Of a stretch of DNA of 24,067 bases, positions 10,460 to 19,587 are shown one piece after another (positions within the stretch are counted from its first letter, which is position 1; the number at the start of each line of letters is the position of its first letter). The notes below the pieces were generated by a model, which had not been told where the DNA came from, searched no databases, and was given only the letters and a program-made list of their open reading frames with translations. The position numbers and the translations under genes are program-made. The stretch comes from a virus, in IMG/VR virus record IMGVR_UViG_3300009169_000098, positions 1-24,067 of that record; one strand, written 5' to 3'.

Positions 10460-12895
10460 TTATTTATTACTAGTCCTCTTATTAATAGCGTCTTTTTGTA
10501 TTTCCTCTTTAGCCAGATTAGCTCTTTGAGTTTCTGCTAATTTATCTTCCGCTATTCTAATCTGATCTTGTTTATATTTTTCATCCACATCAGTACGTCT
10601 TATATCTAGATAATCATCTATACCGTTTTTATCGGTATCAATTCTTTCTCCGTCTACAGCTTGTCGGTTATCTGCATGTAATTCTCTCATACCTGCAATT
10701 TGTAAATCTGCTTGAATTTTCTCTCGTTTTACAGCAATGTCATCCTCATGGATTTTAAGTTCTATTTGGCGTTGCATATTTTTATCCTCAAGCATTGCTT
10801 TAGTCTGCTCCTCTTGAGATGCCATTTTTCTTTCTTCCATTTGTTGGCCTTCTTCCTTAATTCTTCTAGCAGAATCCTCAAGTCTTCTTGATACTTCCTG
10901 AACAGATTCAGATTGTGTAATAGCAATAAGGTCTGATATAGTAGCTTGACCATTTTGAATAGCAGCCTGTGATAAAGATCTTAAATCTTCATATAACTGT
11001 GTATCATTAGTAGAGTTAGAAACATGGATATCATACTCAGATGCTACAAATTCATCGAACTTAGTTACCATGTGTTGACCCATATCGTCAAGTAAGAATT
11101 GTCCTTTCTTAGGATTTTTCTTGTATGCATATTTACAACATTCAAGAAACTTAGTAAGGACTCTTTTGCGGAAGTTAGCATCAATAGCAAACCATTTTTC
11201 AGTAATATGTGAAGTCTGTGATACTTCTCTCTCAACATTACCTTGGGATTCTCTATTACTTATCTGGCCTTCTCTTGCTCCAGATACTCCAGCTAATTTT
11301 CCTAAAGTATTTTCTATATCCACCATCAAATTAGTGTACATGCCTATTTCATTAGGGTCGCCTACTTGTATTTGTTGAGCAGTAAGAGTATTAAATGCTC
11401 CCGCGGATTTCCCTTGAGAAGGGCCTTTAAGTATTTCATTAGTTGGGTCTAACCAAGCAAACTTGTTTATAGTAACATATCGCATCCACTCTTTGGGATC
11501 CCAACCTGAAGGAACTAAGGAAGAATTTAGAGCAGTAAAAGAGCCCTTGTAGGTAGCAATAGCTAGTTCTCTTTTGTAGTAAGCAATGTCATAAGAGTAT
11601 GTCATTGGCTTCATAATATCCATTAATGACTGTACTTTATAATCATTGGTACTATTTACACTTCCAACATAAGGAGGAGTTCCTTTAGATTTATTTACCA
11701 AAGATTTAGAAGCATACGGAACGGGCCGCATTACTGTGTAAATATGATCGGCAATTTTAGTACCTTCCATCCATTCATTAACCCATATCCATTTTACAGT
11801 TTCTCCTAATTCTTTTTTAACCTTATAGTCTTCAGGTACCCAATCTTTCTGCTCCTGCCCATCATCATCGAAGTATGCGAGTTCACCAATCTTTCTTCTA
11901 CTTCTCCAACATACTTTAAGTACTCGAACATTTCCATAAGTGTCAAAAGCTCCTGAAAAAGTTCTAGTTCCCATTTCGTTAGGGTGAAAAATACTTAGGG
12001 CTCCTTGTTCTCCGTAGTAATCATAAACAGAAATATCTCTGTTTAATCCTATTCCGCCTCCACCCATAGAAGCATCTGTCTTTCCTCTTTCTAGGAAATC
12101 TATATCATCTTCAGACAATTCTTCCCAGTAGTCATCTACTATTTGTCCTATAGATTTGTACCCATATTCTACAATAATATCCGCATCTTCTATATACATA
12201 GAGTTACCCCCCATTGTATATAAATTCATTGGATTTACTCTCCTCATTACTGGGTTACCTCCAAGTACTCCACAATACATTATTTCTTCACCGCCTACTA
12301 ATAAATCTTCAAAAGTTTTTAGAAAAGTAAAATCGAAATCCCCTTCTTTATATTCTTTTTTAAGAATTTTATTAGCGGTGATTTCTGCAATATCTTGGTA
12401 CTCGTAAGTTTGATAGTTTTGTAGTTGCTGTAATCTTTTTTGAATTTCTTCTTCTGAAACAGATTTTAGTTTTATTATATCAGTTAGTTCAGATTTAATC
12501 TGCTCCATTAATTCTGTTTCTTTTCTGCCTATGCTGTCTGCATCATTAGCAGAAATATATGCTTTGAATTCTTTTTTCCGTTTAGAGTACTCTCCTAATA
12601 AAAGATTAATTTTAGAATTCTCAATTCCGATGTGTTGAAACGATGCAGGTAATGATTCTAGATCTAGATTATCTGGATTAATAAATTTTTCAAAATCTTT
12701 GACACTAATTATATTAGCTCTTAAGTTATAATTAGATTTCTTGTTTTTAAAATTAGATCTTAGATTTACATCAGAGGTTAATAGATGCTCCGCAAAATCC
12801 ATATTTTTTTTAAACCAATTGTCATCTTTTTTAGAATCAGGTAGTTTCTGTCTTGGGAAACTAATATATCCCTGCATTTTAACTGGAGAACTCAT
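10460..12895 (-). CDS. Portal protein
   Basis: 811 aa. Its size, its place directly downstream of the large terminase, and its architecture fit a portal: an N-terminal helical region, a mixed alpha/beta clip and stem core (YEYQDIAEITANKIL, then GGEEIMYCGVLGGNPVMRRV), a segment around 530-580 with Gly, Arg and Gln-rich sequence (LAGVSGAREGQISNRE), and a very long charged C-terminal coiled coil from about 670 (EEGQQMEERKMASQEEQ) forming the barrel or crown. Twelve copies would form the DNA channel at one capsid vertex, where the terminase docks. The start lacks an SD sequence. Confidence 0.85.
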   Translation of the reverse strand: MSSPVKMQGYISFPRQKLPDSKKDDNWFKKNMDFAEHLLTSDVNLRSNFKNKKSNYNLRANIISVKDFEKFINPDNLDLESLPASFQHIGIENSKINLLLGEYSKRKKEFKAYISANDADSIGRKETELMEQIKSELTDIIKLKSVSEEEIQKRLQQLQNYQTYEYQDIAEITANKILKKEYKEGDFDFTFLKTFEDLLVGGEEIMYCGVLGGNPVMRRVNPMNLYTMGGNSMYIEDADIIVEYGYKSIGQIVDDYWEELSEDDIDFLERGKTDASMGGGGIGLNRDISVYDYYGEQGALSIFHPNEMGTRTFSGAFDTYGNVRVLKVCWRSRRKIGELAYFDDDGQEQKDWVPEDYKVKKELGETVKWIWVNEWMEGTKIADHIYTVMRPVPYASKSLVNKSKGTPPYVGSVNSTNDYKVQSLMDIMKPMTYSYDIAYYKRELAIATYKGSFTALNSSLVPSGWDPKEWMRYVTINKFAWLDPTNEILKGPSQGKSAGAFNTLTAQQIQVGDPNEIGMYTNLMVDIENTLGKLAGVSGAREGQISNRESQGNVEREVSQTSHITEKWFAIDANFRKRVLTKFLECCKYAYKKNPKKGQFLLDDMGQHMVTKFDEFVASEYDIHVSNSTNDTQLYEDLRSLSQAAIQNGQATISDLIAITQSESVQEVSRRLEDSARRIKEEGQQMEERKMASQEEQTKAMLEDKNMQRQIELKIHEDDIAVKREKIQADLQIAGMRELHADNRQAVDGERIDTDKNGIDDYLDIRRTDVDEKYKQDQIRIAEDKLAETQRANLAKEEIQKDAINKRTSNK

Positions 12896-17500: not shown

Positions 17501-17611
17501 CAAATTTGATAGTACAAATATCCAAATTAATAAGTTACTATCCAAATTTTATAGGGAATAAAAAATAGTAGGAAATAGCTTGACTTTTACAATTATTTTA
17601 GTTATGAAGCT

Positions 17612-17681
17612 TACTATAGCTCTAGGTATAGTACCAACATACCCCTGGAGGTACGCCACTACTATAGCTGCAGGTATATTA
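17612..17681. repeat. Two operator-like interrupted palindromes
   Basis: Site 1 (17612-17633) is TACTATA, spacer GCTCTAGG, TATAGTA: perfect 7-bp arms. Site 2 (17660-17681) is TACTATA, spacer GCTGCAGG, TATATTA: one arm mismatch. The two 22-mers agree at 19 of 22 positions and their starts are 48 bp apart. The symmetry suits a dimeric repressor or activator. Confidence 0.6.
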
Positions 17682-17956
17682 GTAGCGACGCGCAACCTAT
17701 AGTAACTTTTTGTAACTAACTAATTTTAAATACTTTATCGTTTTTGAGTATAGTATAGGTAAACCTACACAGTAGGTGCGCGGATACCTATTCGTATACG
17801 GGTACCAGTGTTTAGCCACTTACCTTAGATATTACCTTTATTTTTTTATATATTTTTTTTATATATTTTTTAGGGTACCTATATTCTTTATGATATGATT
17901 GTAGTGTATCAGAAGTGGTTAGCACCTATAACCTAGACCCCTACTAAAGTTGGGCT

Positions 17957-17971
17957 GGGGGAAGTACCCCC
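17957..17971 (+). promoter_or_regulatory. G5/C5 hairpin in leader of the 104-aa gene
   Basis: GGGGG-AAGTA-CCCCC, a perfect five-pair stem in otherwise AT-rich DNA, 33 nt before the start codon at 18005. No T-run follows, so it is not an ordinary terminator. It could stabilise the transcript's 5' end or block exonucleases. Confidence 0.5.
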
Positions 17972-18004
17972 GTAACCAAACAAACCCCTTAAAACTTAGA
18001 AATC

Positions 18005-18319
18005 ATGGGACTTGACTTGAAAAAATTATCAGCTAGTGTTAAGATTTACGGTGAAAAACTGTATGTTGAAGAAAGCAATGCTGGTACAGTTGGTGCTGGC
18101 GAGTATGAGCTAATAAACGATAACACTCTCAAAATTAGTATTGGAGGGGGTAAGTTTATTTGTGCTCGTATCCAGCAGTCTGTGTTAGATGCAGGTATTG
18201 ACTTTGCTACTAAGGTGTTCACAATTGCTGAGTTTGTCGCAATGCGTGATGCGTCTGGTACAACAGACAATGGAGATTGGTCGGTTAGCAAAGGTGCGCA
18301 CAAGTTGTTCGCCTACTAA
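18005..18319 (+). CDS. 104-aa protein of unknown function, first rightward gene
   Basis: Begins MGLDLKKLSASVKIYG and ends SKGAHKLFAY. It is a small soluble protein with predicted beta strands in the first half (KLYVEESNAG, then TLKISIGGGKFICARI) and a helix near 70-85 (FTIAEFVAMRDA). Base composition is noticeably less AT-rich than in nearby genes. CTTAAAA lies 10 nt before the start. A strong hairpin-type terminator follows within 10 nt, so it forms a single-gene unit. The leader hairpin and terminator suggest high expression. No family recognised. Confidence 0.7.
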   Translation: MGLDLKKLSASVKIYGEKLYVEESNAGTVGAGEYELINDNTLKISIGGGKFICARIQQSVLDAGIDFATKVFTIAEFVAMRDASGTTDNGDWSVSKGAHKLFAY

Positions 18320-18326
18320 ATCAGCA

Positions 18327-18369
18327 ATGGTGAGAAGAGGGCGGGAGCCCCTTCCCCACCATCTCTTTT
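18327..18369 (+). terminator. Terminator after the 104-aa gene
   Basis: ATGGTG (18327-18332) pairs with CACCAT (18357-18362). Inside, GAAG and GGGC pair with GCCC and CTTC around a GGGA loop, with one bulged A. CTCTTTTG follows. It is the most GC-rich hairpin in the right arm. Confidence 0.75.
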
Positions 18370-18370
18370 G

Positions 18371-19080
18371 TCTATTAACTTGGCATAGATTAATGTAAAT
18401 CATTAACTTGTCATAGGACTTAAATATATCAACAGTGCATACTACTTGAGTGTATGAAAATGTTCGCAACTAATTGATTTTCAGCTATGTGTATAGTCAA
18501 TGGAGTGGTTACTAATCAAACCTGGTTACATAACCCTAATGCTTAAAGCATTGATAAACCATATCCCTTAAAAAGATATGGCTTAATATTAAACATTAGA
18601 TTCCTACGGTGTCTCCGAAGATTAAAGAACGTTGCAACACCATACTTACGAGTTTGGGTTAGTCTTCTTAGTACTTAATCCTACGGTAATCCGAAGAATC
18701 TATAAAACATCACAGTCCAATTGCTGTTAGGGTTTAACAAGGAAAGCTGGCTCTCCTTGCTGTGATGTTTATTAACACACCATTCCTCAGTGGATATAAA
18801 GACTTCTTAGACGAAAATGCCTCAACTATAGAGAGCTCTTCCTTAAATGGAACTACACTATAGCCTGTGCATAAGGAGAACTAAGCTAAGATGTGAAACC
18901 ACCTGATTAATATTTGCAAAGTGACTACTACTAAGCAGTGGTATCTTCACAGACCGCAGTTACAAGGTCATGATTAATCAGTTCCCAAGATGAGGAGCAA
19001 TTGTAGTAGCTTACATATAGTATTGGTCAGGGTCTTTTGAGATCGCAAGAAATATGACTGCTACAATTGCTAGTGTGGAG
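18371..19080 (+). ncRNA. Candidate large ornate structured RNA
   Basis: About 710 nt with no convincing gene on either strand but dense long helices. Clear pairings: TTAATG/CATTAA (18390-18406); ATTGA/TCAAT enclosing CTAT/ATAG (18473-18501); CCATATC/GATATGG (18559-18581); an 11-bp perfect helix AAACATCACAG/CTGTGATGTTT (18705-18715 with 18760-18770) with CAAGGA/TCCTTG stacked inside; a 9-bp helix (18903-18911 with 18973-18981) enclosing two hairpins as a three-way junction; and a 14-pair helix with one G-U wobble (18996-19009 with 19058-19071). Two similar CCTACGG...CCGAAGA hairpins recur. Size, phage context and multi-branched form recall GOLLD or ROOL RNAs; membership was not tested. Ends are approximate; strand is inferred from flanking genes. 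Confidence 0.65.
18374..18416. repeat. 15-bp direct repeat at the start of the structured region
   Basis: ATTAACTTGGCATAG at 18374-18388 and ATTAACTTGTCATAG at 18402-18416, 14 of 15 bases identical, 28 bp apart. The hairpin TTAATG/CATTAA lies between and partly over them. Could be a tandem protein or RNA contact site, or a promoter element of the RNA gene. Confidence 0.6.
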
Positions 19081-19114
19081 GGGTTATTAATTAGCTAACT
19101 TAAAAATTGAAATT

Positions 19115-19231
19115 ATGATAACTCTTTGTGTACTCCCTGCTTTCAAAGCAGATAGATCAACTGATTGGATATCAGTTATATTAACATGCCTTGCATTAGA
19201 TGCAATATATATTCTACCTATAATCCTTTAA
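19115..19231 (+). CDS. 38-aa hydrophobic peptide
   Basis: Read directly: ATG at 19115-19117, TAA at 19229-19231; begins MITLCVLPAFKADRSTDW and ends in one membrane-length hydrophobic segment (ISVILTCLALDAIYILPIIL). CTTAAAA lies 9 nt before the start, the same leader signature as several confident right-arm genes, and the next gene starts 12 nt after the stop. Probably a small inner-membrane peptide. Its shortness keeps certainty moderate. Confidence 0.45.
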   Translation: MITLCVLPAFKADRSTDWISVILTCLALDAIYILPIIL

Positions 19232-19243
19232 TAATTAGAAAAT

Positions 19244-19444
19244 ATGGAAACTTTAAAAGAAAGACTATTACAAATAATAGTATTCTTCCTATTCTACTAC
19301 ACCATAGCTACTTTAATATGGCTCCCTTTTAGCCAAATAGTTAGCTGGAAATCATTCATAACAAGTGATGCAATGTACATAATAGCAGGAATTATATCCT
19401 TTGCCCTAACTTTTGATTGGGTTTACGATAGAAAAAACAAATAA
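19244..19444 (+). CDS. 66-aa two-helix membrane protein
   Basis: Two hydrophobic segments at about 9-28 (QIIVFFLFYYTIATLIWLPF) and 43-58 (AMYIIAGIISFALTF), with charged ends (METLKER and DRKNK). A small protein with two membrane spans could be a holin, a superinfection-exclusion protein or another envelope modifier. The cell-wall hydrolase at 22146 is 2.7 kb away with several terminators between, so a holin call is weak. A stem-loop follows the gene. Confidence 0.6.
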   Translation: METLKERLLQIIVFFLFYYTIATLIWLPFSQIVSWKSFITSDAMYIIAGIISFALTFDWVYDRKNK

Positions 19445-19463
19445 ACTAAACACCTGTATAACA

Positions 19464-19498
19464 AAGCATATAGGATGTTCTCATACCTCAATGTGCTT
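19464..19498 (+). other. Stem-loop after the membrane protein gene
   Basis: AAGCATATAGG pairs with CCT and ATGTGCTT (one G-U, a 2-nt CA bulge), eleven pairs with an 11-nt loop. No T-run follows, so it may be a processing or stability element rather than a terminator. The rest of the gap to 19588 is AT-rich with nothing else visible. Confidence 0.45.
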
Positions 19499-19587
19499 AT
19501 CGCATACACCCACCATATAAAAACAGTATTATAGCTAAATACTACTATTTAATCAAAAAAATTATCCTAATCTTTAAATTAAAAATT

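Follow-up and report, generated by a model that had tools for sequence, protein, structure and literature searches.

The locus

The window analysed here is a 24,067-nt stretch of viral DNA (IMG/VR record IMGVR_UViG_3300009169_000098, positions 1 to 24,067) and comes from a crAss-like phage, of which it is a fragment. The terminase, portal, and capsid genes it carries matched PHROGs 6681, 6547, and 11589. Within the annotated collection, the phage with the closest terminase was Cellulophaga phage phi14:2 (Steigviridae; 33% identity). Crassvirales rank among the most abundant known phages; to our knowledge, no structured RNAs of such a kind are known from them. Here, we report on positions 18371 to 19080 (plus strand), which a preliminary description had presented as about 700 nt of gene-free DNA and a candidate giant phage RNA, possibly a member or relative of the GOLLD and ROOL families.

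Structural genes occupied the minus strand up to 17.5 kb, and the plus-strand arm began at 18005. As described, the stretch started after a terminator-like hairpin with a T run (18327-18369, plus strand; minimum free energy [MFE] fold and sequence) closing a 104-amino-acid (aa) gene (18005-18319), and it stopped before new plus-strand open reading frames (ORFs) from 19117. A conserved micro-ORF (18487-18546) and its hairpins lay within the first 220 nt, so the absence of genes held for 18594-19116 (where no ORF reached 50 aa) and not for the first part. Downstream lay three modules, D (18597-18702), A' (18706-18769), and B (18774-19085). This downstream portion is almost certainly structured RNA, as judged from evidence that is comparative rather than thermodynamic.

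Recurrent RNA classes

Module B (plus strand) is the long form of a recurrent class, class B, a structured RNA of ~310 nt detected with models R3 and R2. Model R3, for which 11 other copies were used and the window was left out, found the window at 18774-19006 (86.8 bits, E = 4e-23), and R2 matched 18975-19084 (E = 0.0012); covariance-model E-values are rough, given the short calibration. R3 recovered held-out class B copies at scores comparable to the window's, matched 37 of 50 crAss-like records, and had no match in control phage DNA (49 other phage loci, 368 kb). Because related sequences may beat shuffles without structure, this held-out match is the strongest single test, and by sequence comparison module B certainly belongs to an RNA family recurrent in crAss-like phages.

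The module has the helices P1 (CACAC/GTGTG, 18776-18780 with 19073-19077; TGCAC/GTGCA and TGTAC/GTACA in other copies) and P2 (CCTCA/TGAGG, 18785-18789 with 18991-18995; compensatory variants in other copies). Comparison of class B copies identified two invariant elements, GTGGATATAAAGACTTCTT (18790-18808) and AAGATGTGAAACCAC (18888-18902). GTGG in the first pairs with CCAC at 18899-18902 (P2a), and TCTTAG (18805-18810) pairs with CTAAGA (18886-18891). P2b followed (CTGATTAAT/ATTAATCAG, 18903-18911 with 18973-18981), and P3 (5' strand AGCAATTGTAG, 18996-19006 with 19061-19071) enclosed a hypervariable insert as its loop. Written as RNA, the helices are P1 CACAC/GUGUG, P2 CCUCA/UGAGG, P2b CUGAUUAAU/AUUAAUCAG, and P3 AGCAAUUGUAG/CUACAAUUGCU. 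At many pairs, both bases of the window copy departed from the commonest pair yet remained paired, and the unconstrained MFE fold gave all six comparative helices.

Among more than 60 class B copies, the core read AATGCACCA-nnn-P2-UUCCCAAGG-P2'-P3-insert-P3'-A-P1'-GAGGG, with P2 entirely rewritten from copy to copy (CTCAC/GTGAG, CCTGA/TCAGG, TCTAC/GTAGA, CTTAT/ATAAG, and CTATC/GATAG). In the core alignment (22 rows), 97.8% of cells were paired and 15 of 19 pairs were changed on both sides, which none of 500 shuffles equalled. The long form carried an extra domain in P2, GUGG-AUAUAAAGACU-UCUU...AAGA-UGUGAAA-CCAC, plus the 9-bp helix P2b. Scanning for 18 nt of this domain as a pattern returned 62 contigs, with the remaining RNA at the right distance in nearly all. 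Across 39 long copies, changes on both sides were seen at 5/5 pairs of P2, 9/9 of P2b, and 9/9 counted pairs of P3; the P3 counts are biased upward, since some rows were selected for P3 complementarity, and P1, P2, P2a, and P2b played no role in row selection. P2a is invariant in class B and uninformative on covariation. In alignments A3 and A4, MAFFT displaced the window's sequence in P2/P3, an effect that depresses the pair counts rather than inflating them. G-U cells exceeded A-C cells (12:7 and 6:1), weak support for a plus-strand RNA. The median longest stop-free run of class B copies was 46.5 codons in ~300 nt. Apart from the micro-ORF, no conserved reading frame across the stretch was found, and covariation in homologues was found for P2, P2b, and P3 of class B and in class A.

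Class A comprised more than 100 distinct copies of the frame ACTCTCA-UCCAA(UU)GCAG-insert-CAAGG-RUUGCAA-CCUUG-UGAGAGU, with inserts of mostly 24-160 nt. P1 covaried (CTCTTA/TAAGAG, CTCTTG/CAAGAG, GTTCTTG/CAAGAAC) in copies picked without reference to P1, and the hairpin loop paired with the linker, again with covariation (GCAG/UUGC; GUAG/UUAC in contig L140; GCCG/UGGC in L232). Module A' (18706-18769, plus strand) has this anatomy, with P1 AACATCACAG/CTGTGATGTT, a TCCAA(TT)GCNG-type linker TCCAATTGCTG, and a hairpin (CAAGG-12 nt-CCTTG) abutting P1'; its P1 and loop sequences differ. A 91% identical copy lay at L232:8188-8255, and A' is probably a distant branch of the class A family. Its P1 is a perfect 10-bp helix (18706-18715/18760-18769) with 11 pairs possible through the next A-T. 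The helices named in the preliminary description could thus all be located: this 11-bp one, the 9-bp junction-closing P2b, and a helix of 14 pairs, one of them G-U, that starts at 18996/19071.

Module D (18597-18702, plus strand) was delimited from sequence, closed by TAGATTC/GAATCTA with two copies of CCTACGGTnnnTCCGAAGA. Its motif CCTACGGTnnnnCCGAAGA had 49 matches in viral contigs, all judged to be chance by context.

Genomic address, arrangement, and exchange

Uncultured crAss-like phages that carry such an array number in the dozens to hundreds. A crAss-like terminase was present in 38 of 40 large carrier contigs and crAss-like capsid protein likewise in 38 of 40. Both coordinates were available for 32 records; in every one of these the modules and the terminase were on opposite strands, with the modules 3.2-24.6 kb upstream of the terminase (3.7 kb in the window). 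The array locus lies in the transcription arm diverging from the terminase. The records searched had one array locus per genome, at which multiple copies clustered. By blastn, 18594-19116 had no relative at the same spot in most relatives fetched through the terminase, where the space was taken by different non-coding sequence, tRNA-His, or an ORF for an HNH-like endonuclease; comparison of those non-coding sequences exposed the recurring modules. In L034, the HNH-like ORF (155 aa, by eye; minus strand, ~+260 to +727 from the anchor) adjoined a class B module.

Neither class was found in ~50,700 phage records, and blastn against INPHARED with the stretch and with class A and B seeds gave chance matches only. 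Among 84,980 microbial genomes (bacterial/archaeal), the class A pattern had no match and a class B 22-mer had one, in a small contig of a metagenome-assembled genome (MAG). This match (L397, 58-79; 4.6-kb contig of an Alphaproteobacteria MAG) probably marks a mis-binned phage fragment. Classes A and B had no match in Rfam 15, and the window had none at gathering, including GOLLD, ROOL, HEARO, and OLE, so the suggested membership in GOLLD or ROOL was not borne out. No group I or II intron, ribozyme, or transfer-messenger RNA was matched by Rfam or ARAGORN. A permissive Rfam search of 17900-19500 gave a single snoRNA match (E up to 5), judged to be chance, as were all permissive matches in the L232 array. 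Full-text literature searches gave no account of such RNAs in crAss-like phages; comparative microbiome RNA screens (e.g., PMC8040213) may hold unnamed relatives.

Modules varied in order, number, and combination among phages, with B alone in some and A alone in others, and small ORFs lay between them in some phages. Given a micro-gene, at least three separately closed modules, and classes reordered and renumbered elsewhere, the stretch does not read as a single 700-nt molecule; what stood of the proposed large phage RNA is a new class, with covariation, crAss-like homologues, and no Rfam match. A single giant multidomain RNA of a new family, architectural (e.g., a nanocage) and acting like GOLLD or ROOL, would account for the long RNAs, the pseudoknot-like pairing, and the gaps of only 2-6 nt between modules in places, and GOLLD and ROOL are likewise phage RNAs near tRNA islands (PMC12286853). 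We consider it unlikely in view of the variable arrangement, the intervening ORFs, and the lack of an Rfam match. The array shares with GOLLD that it is large structured non-coding phage RNA often near tRNAs, and with ROOL (also in prophages, near tRNA islands) an ornate phage RNA and an unassigned function. It differs from GOLLD in having no Rfam match in the window or relatives and in its 60-310-nt units with exchangeable inserts, and from ROOL in having no Rfam match, in architecture, and in its occurrence in crAss-like phages whose hosts are uncultured rather than in bacterial genomes.

Like the modules, phi29-type packaging RNA is a small phage RNA that contains a three-way junction; neither sequence nor locus was found to connect the two, and the modules differ in being several per genome with variable inserts.

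Near-identical inserts occurred in unrelated surroundings. Class A copies from different contigs formed 112 pairs whose inserts shared at least 90% identity; in 85 of these, both 150-nt flanks were at the unrelated level (scores of unrelated flanks averaged 0.60 and did not exceed 0.67). For class B, with a cut-off of 85% insert identity, flanks were unrelated in 5 of 6 pairs. Hence whole modules, or inserts set in constant frames, travel between phages as units, and modular exchange is very probable on these comparisons. The 85 of 112 pairs would also suit selfish hairpin cassettes without RNA function that move as DNA via terminal inverted repeats. Such cassettes are an improbable explanation, given one locus per genome, constant orientation to the terminase (32/32), and strong compensatory change that extends to internal helices and loop-linker pairing; recombination by way of the constant frame would be enough to account for the exchange pattern.

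Class A stacks a 7-bp P1 directly on a hairpin of 5 bp and a 7-nt loop, the geometry of a tRNA acceptor/T-arm, and tRNA-like or translation-linked RNAs (ligands of ribosome, RNase P, or a synthetase) could replace or supplement a tRNA island. The preliminary description had noted that GOLLD and ROOL are often near tRNAs. The window itself had no tRNA by ARAGORN, but tRNA-His lay at the equivalent spot in six relatives, and in crAss001 a tRNA island lies at a similar distance, 3.5-7.5 kb, upstream of the terminase. The crAss001 parallel is suggestive only, because the island is on the terminase strand. Crassvirales tRNA islands, such as that of Bacteroides phage crAss001, share with the array tandem small structured RNAs a few kilobases upstream of the terminase; they differ in strand, and the array has non-tRNA modules with a constant frame and hypervariable insert. 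A tRNA-like role seems doubtful to us: no window module was called a tRNA by ARAGORN or Rfam, class B is not tRNA-like, the loop GUUGCAA is no T-loop and pairs with the linker, and any tRNA was present at just 43 of 201 module loci.

Modules were co-directional with the flanking small genes, and some lay between small ORFs, as might be expected of cis-acting mRNA elements (stabilisers, processing sites, or riboswitches) of those genes. This is slightly less probable still, as module runs can be long and ORF-free (~1.3 kb in L004, ~2 kb in L232), downstream genes vary, and hypervariable inserts are unexpected for simple stabilisers.

Two further elements accompanied the arrays. An RNA class C, absent from the window, has a GAGTATAGTCAGACTGCAGATAACTGC core closed by ATATCAAGTAT/ATACTTGATAT (L004 minus strand, ~11803-11900; L145, 507-600; L232, 7548-7670). 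Element class E is a hairpin, GACG-TGATATT-CGTC or GCAG-TGATATT-CTGC, followed by GTATACCTGAGCATGTAGACAAACTGC, and lay between A and B modules in L007, L036, L119, L139, L178, L197, L215, and L222. A supposed conserved peptide in relatives, RRDIRRIPEHVDKL, was rejected as this non-coding element, whose hairpin covaries (GACG/CGTC versus GCAG/CTGC).

Possible function

RNA structure under selection, a fixed locus and orientation, constant frames, and exchanged inserts are established. The overall reading that we favour, structured RNA modules, each closed on its own, arrayed in tandem at one locus with constant frames and exchanged inserts and directed at the host, has in our estimate about an even chance of being right. 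The array would be transcribed on the plus strand together with neighbouring small genes, and cleavage of the transcript at short AT-rich spacers would release the individual RNAs. The constant frame, tRNA acceptor/T-arm-like in class A, may protect or present each RNA, and the exchangeable insert may bind a factor of the host or a rival phage. The most likely job would be host take-over or counter-defence by means of RNA decoys or inhibitors, with recombination through the constant frame as the source of their diversity.

Our best guess from sequence patterns is that the modules act in trans on a host factor, a role to which we would give somewhat less than an even chance. The exchange pattern and constant-frame design speak for selection on insert diversity; this fits an arms race best, without proving one. 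More tentatively, crAss-like phages may carry an RNA arsenal of constant-frame arrays with inserts swapped like cassettes, each aimed at a different host factor or defence; if true, this would be an RNA-based counterpart to variable protein repertoires.

Several points weigh against the favoured reading. Folding energies on the plus strand were hardly beyond chance (z = -2.5 for 18320-19100, -0.9 for module B, and -1.15 for module D) and z was better on the minus strand; the unconstrained fold of module B reproduced the helices, although its energy is ordinary. Motif and k-mer searches of viral contigs and near modules found no relatives of module D. Class A model R1 failed to recover A', which, despite the L232 copy, is therefore called only a class-A-like subfamily (three or four known members). 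No credible module match was found in crAss001, phi14:2, and two other annotated records (cr85_1 was among the Crassvirales tested), so modules are dispensable for Crassvirales as a whole; a class A model match in crAss001 (E = 0.007) was antisense inside a coding sequence and judged to be chance. The proposed function is a guess.

These results add two or more new RNA families, backed by strong covariation, working covariance models, and a defined genomic address, together with evidence for exchange of RNA inserts between phages in constant frames. With many natural variants, the role of large phage RNAs becomes testable.

Neighbouring features

The block 18468-18593 was ~80% identical at the DNA level in 16 relatives fetched through the terminase, in which the micro-ORF (18487-18546, plus strand; 20 codons including the stop) kept its frame with 3-codon length differences. 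It encodes a 19-aa micropeptide, MCIVNGVVTNQTWLHNPNA*. Alignment of relatives identified two plus-strand hairpins, AATGC-TTAAA-GCATT (18538-18552) with the stop codon in its loop, and CCATATC/GATATGG followed by TTAATATT (18559-18581). The first stem covaried (AATGC/GCATT in the window, AACTC/GAGTT in L002 and L003, AATGCC/GGCATT in L036). The micro-ORF and its hairpins are separate from the RNA array and possibly form a leader peptide or attenuator.

A protein search with the 104-aa gene product (18005-18319) found no relatives, and unrelated small ORFs stood in its place in several relatives. Between the divergent arms, 17560-17780 and 17710-18002 were conserved and non-coding with inverted repeats, a candidate regulatory or origin region.
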